Part shown: one piece after another, positions 1 to 32,600 of the stretch
How the letters are laid out: each line of letters starts with the position of its first letter
Numbering within the stretch: the first letter of the stretch is position 1
Source of the DNA: Geosiphon pyriformis
Lineage: Eukaryota; Glomeromycota; Glomeromycetes; Archaeosporales; Geosiphonaceae
Assembly (NCBI GenBank): GCA_016748015.1
Contig: JAAOMT010000418.1
Span: 1 to 38,953, forward strand
Length of the DNA: 38,953 nucleotides
Reading direction: 5' to 3'
Notes under the pieces: model-generated
Told to the model about the DNA's origin: nothing
Seen by the model: the letters and a program-made list of their open reading frames with translations, nothing else
Databases searched by the model: none
Made by a program: the position numbers and the translations under genes

Positions 1-540
1 TTCGTTGTTCCTTCTCCATTTTGATAACAAACTCCAAGATTGTATTGTGCATTTGTATTATCCGCCTCTGCTGCTTTTGAATAGAGTTGAAATGCTTTTT
101 CCAAGTTTTTCGTTGTTCCTTCTCCATTTTGATAACAAACTCCAAGATTGACTTGTGCATCTGTATTACCCGCCTCTGCTGCTTTTGAATAGAGTTGAAA
201 TGCTTTTTCCAAGTTTTTCGTTGTTCCCAATCCATTTTCATAAGAAATTCCAAGATTGAATTGTGCATATGTATTACCCGCCTCTGCTGCTTTTGAATAG
301 AGTTGAAATGCTTTTTCCAAGTTTTTCGTTGTTCCTTCTCCATTTAGATAACACCATCCAAGATTGTATTGTGCATTTGTATTACCCGCCTCTGCTGCTT
401 TTGAATAGAGTTGAAATGCTTTTTCCAAGTTTTTCCTTGTTCCCCATCCATTTTCATAACAACGACCTAAAAAGAATTGTCCAAAAGAATCTTTTGCATT
501 CGCTGCTTTCTGAAATTCTATAAATGCTTTTATTGGATTG
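1..540. repeat. 108-bp tandem coding repeats (Sel1 units)
   Basis: Five consecutive 108-bp units are nearly identical at the DNA level; the few differences cluster in the codons next to the GXGT motif. Because 108 is 36 codons, gain or loss of a unit keeps the frame. Such high identity suggests recent unit duplication or gene conversion, and also makes this a likely place for short-read assembly to collapse or misjoin. Confidence 0.9.
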
Positions 541-635
541 GGGATAGTTCCAATCCCATTTTCTAAAGAAAACCCAAGCAAAATATAGTCTATCGAACGT
601 TTTGAACTTTTATTGTTCAATGAATTGAATAAATC
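1..635 (-). CDS. Sel1-like repeat protein, partial at both ends
   Basis: The minus strand is open across the whole interval with no start codon and runs off the left edge. It encodes five 36-residue Sel1-like repeats with an exact 108-bp period (units start at 1, 109, 217, 325 and 433). Each carries the pattern AQYNLG.CY.NG.GT.KNLEKA followed by F.LYSKAAEA. A more diverged N-terminal piece lies between about 470 and 635 and includes SIDYILLGFSLENG. Sel1 repeats are TPR-related helical pairs that act as protein-protein scaffolds; in Glomeromycotina they often follow a protein kinase domain, but no kinase is visible here. Reading stops abruptly at 635, where a Tn5 mosaic-end sequence begins, so the true N-terminus is missing. 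The family call is secure; the role is unknown. Confidence 0.85.
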
Positions 636-654
636 CTGTCTCTTATACACATCT
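636..654. other. Tn5 mosaic-end (tagmentation adapter) sequence
   Basis: The 19 bases CTGTCTCTTATACACATCT match the full mosaic end used in Tn5 tagmentation libraries. The match begins exactly where the Sel1 reading frame and its similarity to the degenerate copy at 32.4 kb both stop. This is most simply leftover adapter or mate-pair junction sequence in the assembly, not native DNA. The join between 1-635 and 655 onward should be treated as unproven. Confidence 0.9.
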
Positions 655-1092
655 ATAAAAATTATTATTTTAATATTGAATAAATGTTATTAGTATTTAT
701 AATAAATAATAATTTAAACTTGAACATTTGTAGTAATGCTTTTATTCAAAAAATTTTGCCAAATATTATTTATTTTTTAGATATTAAGTTTAATAACAAC
801 AACATTAAAAATTTCTTAAAATCTAAACATATTTTTAACAATAATTAAACTTAAAAAAATGATAGATCATATACTTAAATAATTATTTTACTAATTTTAT
901 AAACTATATAATAAAAAAGGTAATTAATTTGGCTTTAAAAGTCTTTTTAAAAACAAAAGATTTTAATAGTATTTTTTATTAAATATGTGTTAAAACACAA
1001 TTTGATTTGTTTTTACAATAGAAAATAATTTATTAAAATAAATGTATTAGACAACACAACCAATAGTTAATCCATATTTATTTCAATAAACA

Positions 1093-32336: not shown

Positions 32337-32600
32337 AAAATTGTCCAAAAGAATCTTTTCAATCCATTTTTTCCTAGAATAGTTCTAATCAACGTGTTCT
32401 AAAGAAAAGTCAAACAAAATATAGTCTATTGAACTTTCGAAATTTTCATCGTTTAAAGAATTTAATAGATCTTCAGGTGTTTTATGATTGCACTCAAGAA
32501 ATTTTCTTTACAAAGTCGCAACTTTTGAATATGAATTGTTCAAACAATTTTCTTTGATGACAATAAATGCTTTTTCAATCAAATCGAAAAATGAAATTAA
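32337..32600 (-). pseudogene. Degenerate Sel1-gene N-terminal copy
   Basis: Read on the minus strand, this encodes HKTPEDLLNSLNDENFESS, then SIDYILFDFSLEHVD followed by a stop, closely matching DLFNSLNNK..KRSIDYILLGFSLENG coded at about 635-560. DNA similarity is clear across 32341-32475 and 475-635. It has a stop and frame damage and lacks the 108-bp repeats. It extends past the point where the other copy is cut by adapter sequence, so it shows what kind of coding sequence should precede DLFNSL. Confidence 0.7.

Follow-up and report, generated by a model that had tools for sequence, protein, structure and literature searches.

Misassembly at the closing of gaps is a known kind of error in repeat-rich genomes, and the joins described here resemble it in that their flanks lie on the same strand, a few hundred bases are lost or duplicated, and bases from another copy can stand at the join. 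They differ from it in carrying a 19-base label, by which they can be listed with a text search. A second close relative is untrimmed Nextera read-through in short-read assemblies, which shares with the present case an exact mosaic end (ME) and a Tn5 preference on the insert side; here, however, the ME lies inside contigs with genomic DNA on both sides, and the outer adapter is absent. The third point of comparison is the insertion preference of Tn5 itself, for which one study reports a 9-bp core with G/C edges (PMC8557372). The G/C edges recur here and the dyad form comes from the present analysis; the preference is read here from assembly scars instead of reads. No publication about this assembly was found among the papers listed for arbuscular mycorrhizal assemblies, adapters, misassembly, Tn5 preference and the ME peptides.

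The DNA analysed, referred to below as the window, is 38,953 bases long and makes up the entire contig C113. At positions 636-654 it reads CTGTCTCTTATACACATCT, the reverse complement, with zero mismatches, of the 19-base Tn5/Nextera mosaic end. The match is the only one in the window even when up to three mismatches are tolerated, and none turned up in 100 shuffles; the original prediction, which had named these bases as the Tn5 mosaic end, was right on this point. A separate report gives the same letters for the Nextera XT adapter that trimming has to remove (PMC10542563).

The assembly as a whole (124,688,122 bases in 406 contigs) was then screened for further copies of the 19-mer, as had been proposed along with that identification. 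The screen returned 99 exact MEs (48 forward, 51 reverse), against 0 for a reversed-pattern control. All 99 were retrieved, in 96 loci, and both flanks of each were read. G+C in the retrieved loci is about 29%. Runs of N occur in 20 of the 96; they may be scaffold gaps or withheld stretches, and they fit, if weakly, a scaffolded assembly. Two loci (L053 and L104) hold two MEs each, about 0.9 kb apart, and a third (L016, C134:56914-56971) holds two that face each other 20 bases apart, the closest pair among the 99; the remaining loci have a single ME. L016 also lies near sequence resembling the Sel1 repeats of the window. Many truncated MEs were not found: the insert-proximal 14-mer of the ME occurs 104 times in the assembly (control 0) and the far-end 14-mer 99 times (control 2), which gives about five extra copies at most. 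The TruSeq adapter core had 0 matches in the assembly, and no outer Nextera adapter was seen beside the ME in any of the 99 far flanks, judged by eye.

In the window the ME falls in a gene of Sel1 repeats (Table 1), whose Pfam PF08238 match in 1-635 scores 204 bits against a cut-off of 30.7 (Chs7, the chitin synthase export chaperone, is also among the Pfam families matched in the window, and such families make the genome look fungal, presumably Glomeromycotina-like). The closest paralog of 1-635, on C265, has 92% DNA identity over all 635 bases, and many paralogs elsewhere match the window up to exactly 635. Within the window, 544-635 aligns to 32379-32471 and the alignment again ends exactly at 635, in agreement with the earlier claim that similarity to the copy at 32.4 kb stops at the 19-mer. 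The accompanying claim that the Sel1 reading frame ends there has to be dropped: the minus-strand frame, followed from stop to stop, crosses the ME as DVYKRQ and stays open to 686 (the ORF listing starts it at a GTG inside the ME, position 650), and it is the Sel1-gene homology that stops at 635. The frame also runs off the start of the contig; with the window spanning the entire contig, the gene is truncated on that side too.

What is missing at the ME is the start of the gene. Paralogs were compared through the best 11 (the window excluded) of 201 matches to a 129-residue piece, and all 11 have, directly before the break point, a recognisable N-terminal segment that takes in the gene start and measures 52-55 codons. 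The segment is uninterrupted from its ATG in eight of them; L111 and L114 have a stop inside it, and L115 is without the ATG. At the ME break of the window the segment is absent, and within the window it is found solely in the degenerate copy at 32.4-32.6 kb, which, independently of any adapter, looks like a pseudogene from its own sequence. Because the paralogs keep 52-55 codons that the window does not have at this point, at least about 160 coding bases are missing at the ME, and because a start present in 11 of 11 paralogs is lost exactly there, to call this gene naturally truncated would be a misreading, as the original prediction had warned: its shortening is an artefact of assembly. Genome-wide, Sel1 genes form a very large family, with at least 201 matches to the 129-residue piece (several per gene), many of them in open frames of several hundred to more than 1000 codons.

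Table 1. Coordinates of the features discussed, in positions of the window
Feature	Position	Strand	Basis or remark
Sel1-repeat gene fragment, with 108-base (36-codon) tandem units at about 1-483	1-635	-	Pfam PF08238; offsets 108 and 216
Tn5/Nextera 19-base mosaic end, tagmented insert on the 1-635 side	636-654	-	Exact match; one of 99 exact copies; insert-side Tn5 preference over all 99 sites
63 bases identical to C155:132256-132318	655-717		63/63; surroundings on C155 differ
A/T-rich sequence, 97-98% like C372	689-1073		Alignments 689-983 and 978-1073
Degenerate second copy of the Sel1 gene start, with an in-frame stop; has the N-terminal segment that the first copy lacks	32379-32594	-	

The flanks of the 99 MEs say on which side the adapter belongs. 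With every ME oriented as AGATG...GACAG, the nine bases after GACAG form the insert side, and across the 99 sites this 9-mer stands at 1.42 bits, against a mean of 0.22 and a maximum of 0.42 at 260 shifted positions. Its dyad correlation of 0.75 was matched at one of the 260, and the preference is dyad-symmetric with G/C at the edges (first column, p = 5.5e-11). On the far side of the 99 MEs no Tn5 preference was found (0.23 bits). Exact direct repeats of 4, 5, 6, 8 or 9 bases across the ME were found at 0 of 99 sites and of 3 bases at four, and the mean 9-base agreement across the ME was 2.7 against 2.6 for mixed pairs, which shows no target duplication. A signature on one side only, together with the lack of a 9-bp duplication, means that the ME belongs to the insert on that one side and that the DNA on the other side was added later. 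Each ME site thus marks the end of a tagmented read, to which other genomic DNA has been attached, and the ME itself, an exact 19-mer in 99 copies with a one-sided Tn5 preference and no target duplication, is library-derived.

How the far flank was added can be read at sites in dispersed repeats that have other copies among the retrieved loci. The comparison took in alignments of at least 45 bases and at least 70% identity that ended within 15 bases of the ME, at sites other than the window's own, and flank distances were measured within loci of about 2 kb, against copies 70-98% alike. At 21 sites (31 site-copy pairs) both flanks reach the junction on one other copy of the repeat, and they lie on the same strand at all 21 and on opposite strands at none. 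Dropping pairs whose copy has an ME or Ns in the interval left 15 clean sites; at 13 of them 297-726 bp of the other copy are missing, and two duplicate 139 and 266 bp. The six testable sites that were not clean gave 1586, 506, 332-423, 135, 361-418 and -898. Of the 21 sites, 20 have one copy or more in which the flanks keep the expected order; the exception is the second ME of L104, reversed against its sole comparison, L044, which itself bears an ME there. L044 is likewise reversed against L104 and is in order against L093. L014 has a 198-base duplication at 99% identity. At none of 38 sites did the ME show in-register homology with the natural continuation of the far flank, the longest shared start being 3 bases.

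At some sites the bases beside the ME equal those of another locus. The exactly 246 bases before the ME at L010 (C83:303130-303375) and at L012 (C114:508529-508774) are identical to another locus, and beyond this run identity falls to about 76-88%; it looks as though a stretch the length of one read had been drawn from the wrong copy, and the alignments suggest losses of about 0.9 kb (L012) and 1.2 kb (L010) or more. At L013 the exact run is 134 bases and the step less clear than at these two loci, and L024 is identical to C132:700-1219 over all 520 bases compared. Among the 23 far flanks without a match in the retrieved loci, seven were searched genome-wide: five have a second copy at 99-100% identity and two have none. 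The idea that every far flank would terminate in an exact repeat of one set length did not hold across the sites. Counted in the retrieved loci, which are uneven (extra loci were retrieved for the window and four other sites), exact terminal runs of at least 30 bases are not commoner at the ME (16 of 99) than at control positions (45 of 297), and runs of at least 45 bases occur in 15 of 99 far flanks and at 32 of 297 control positions. Borrowed bases are thus found at single sites and are not a rule. The joins are faulty: set against other copies, the clean sites have sequence missing or doubled, and a number of sites show bases beside the ME that equal those of other loci. This bears out the suspicion, voiced before the present analysis, that the contig is chimeric or gap-bridged at the 19-mer.

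The explanation that best covers these findings, to which we give a probability of about 0.87, is that a Nextera-type library left adapter-bearing contig ends, which were joined to their neighbours at gap closing or scaffolding. A Nextera-type (Tn5) short-read library would have been assembled with adapter read-through incompletely removed, reads through short inserts retaining the ME. Contigs would have stopped at the last tagmented fragment and retained at their ends the 19 bases of the ME, which both Nextera adapters contain, presumably at this point because the two adapters share just the ME and then diverge. Scaffolding or gap closing would next have set the ME-bearing end directly against the end of a neighbouring contig; to judge from the testable sites, such joins would usually drop a few hundred bases and sometimes keep an overlap twice, and in some of them bases from another copy would come to adjoin the ME. 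In the window, the join at 636-654 would have removed the first 52-55 Sel1 codons and their upstream sequence. The exact ME, its copy number, the one-sided Tn5 signature, the same-strand joins with loss or duplication, the borrowed bases and the missing gene start are direct observations; what we infer is which kit made the library, that contigs ended at the ME, that gaps were closed there, and the part played by the software. Several points count against the explanation. Since the outer adapter is in 0 of 99 far flanks, one must further suppose either that sequence broke off at the point of divergence of the two adapters or that trimming took away the outer part. At 38 sites the ME has no in-register homology to what naturally continues the far flank, which gives software no evident reason for a direct join, and the reversed second ME of L104, the two of seven far flanks without a second copy and the lack of enrichment of terminal runs count against it as well.

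The joins might instead have arisen during library preparation, as physical chimeras in which a tagmented end was ligated or copied onto another fragment and then assembled. MEs at real Tn5 cut sites and joins without homology to the ME are in keeping with such an origin, but random chimeras would link unrelated places in both orientations, and the strand is kept at 21 of 21 testable sites, with flanks within about 1.6 kb of each other (just such short distances are visible in the comparison). A rare chimeric molecule should moreover be outvoted by normal coverage, and we regard this origin as unlikely. Junction adapters of a Nextera mate-pair library left in contigs would supply the identical 19-mer; such a junction consists of two back-to-back MEs, has a Tn5 cut site to either side, and connects ends that are in reversed order and several kb apart. 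No back-to-back MEs occur among the 99 (the closest pair, in L016, is 20 bases apart), the Tn5 signature is one-sided and the flanks are in normal order in at least one copy at 20 of 21 testable sites. ME spacing, flank order and the one-sided signature contradict a mate-pair origin, which is very improbable. Least credible are two readings of the 19-mer as native: as the ends of a fungal Tn5/IS50-like element inserted in the Sel1 gene, in favour of which one could cite the 99 copies and their preference for certain insertion sites, seen on one flank, but which is opposed by the absence of a 9-bp duplication and of any family-wide sequence past the 19 bases, by the one-sidedness of the preference and by the sequence lost at the join; or as a genuine fungal repeat whose letters agree with the engineered Tn5 end by coincidence or transfer, the lost stretches being natural deletions that accompany its insertion. 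The ME combines the natural ends in one synthetic sequence, and the evidence argues strongly against a native fungal 19-mer with natural deletions.

The break in the window is an assembly artefact and not a real feature, ordinary in kind and unusually well marked. Readers of the assembly would mistake at least one Sel1 gene for a naturally truncated one, and since no stop interrupts the window frame between the ME and 686, gene prediction could incorporate adapter letters in a protein. At 17 of the 99 sites (L084, L030 and L104, for example; the window site is not one of them) the ME is crossed by an open frame of at least 100 codons, of which 15 or more lie on each side, and such frames could give false fusion proteins with peptides such as MCIRD, DVYKRQ, CLLYTS, VSYTHL or LSLIHI. 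The other 98 MEs deserve equal caution, as they can be mistaken for natural deletions, chimeric repeats or fusion proteins; the 19-base label makes the faulty joins simple to list and mask.

Beyond the ME, the bases that match C155 are probably bridging sequence borrowed from elsewhere, although they may also be a genuine short repeat. They overlap the C372-like part, and in the overlap the window follows C155 at both positions where C372 differs. At about 980 the window lacks 421 bases of C372, and relative to C372 it is also short of bases near a TTA repeat at 1093-1129. These losses, in the region 978-1140, are possibly further assembly damage or possibly natural variation.
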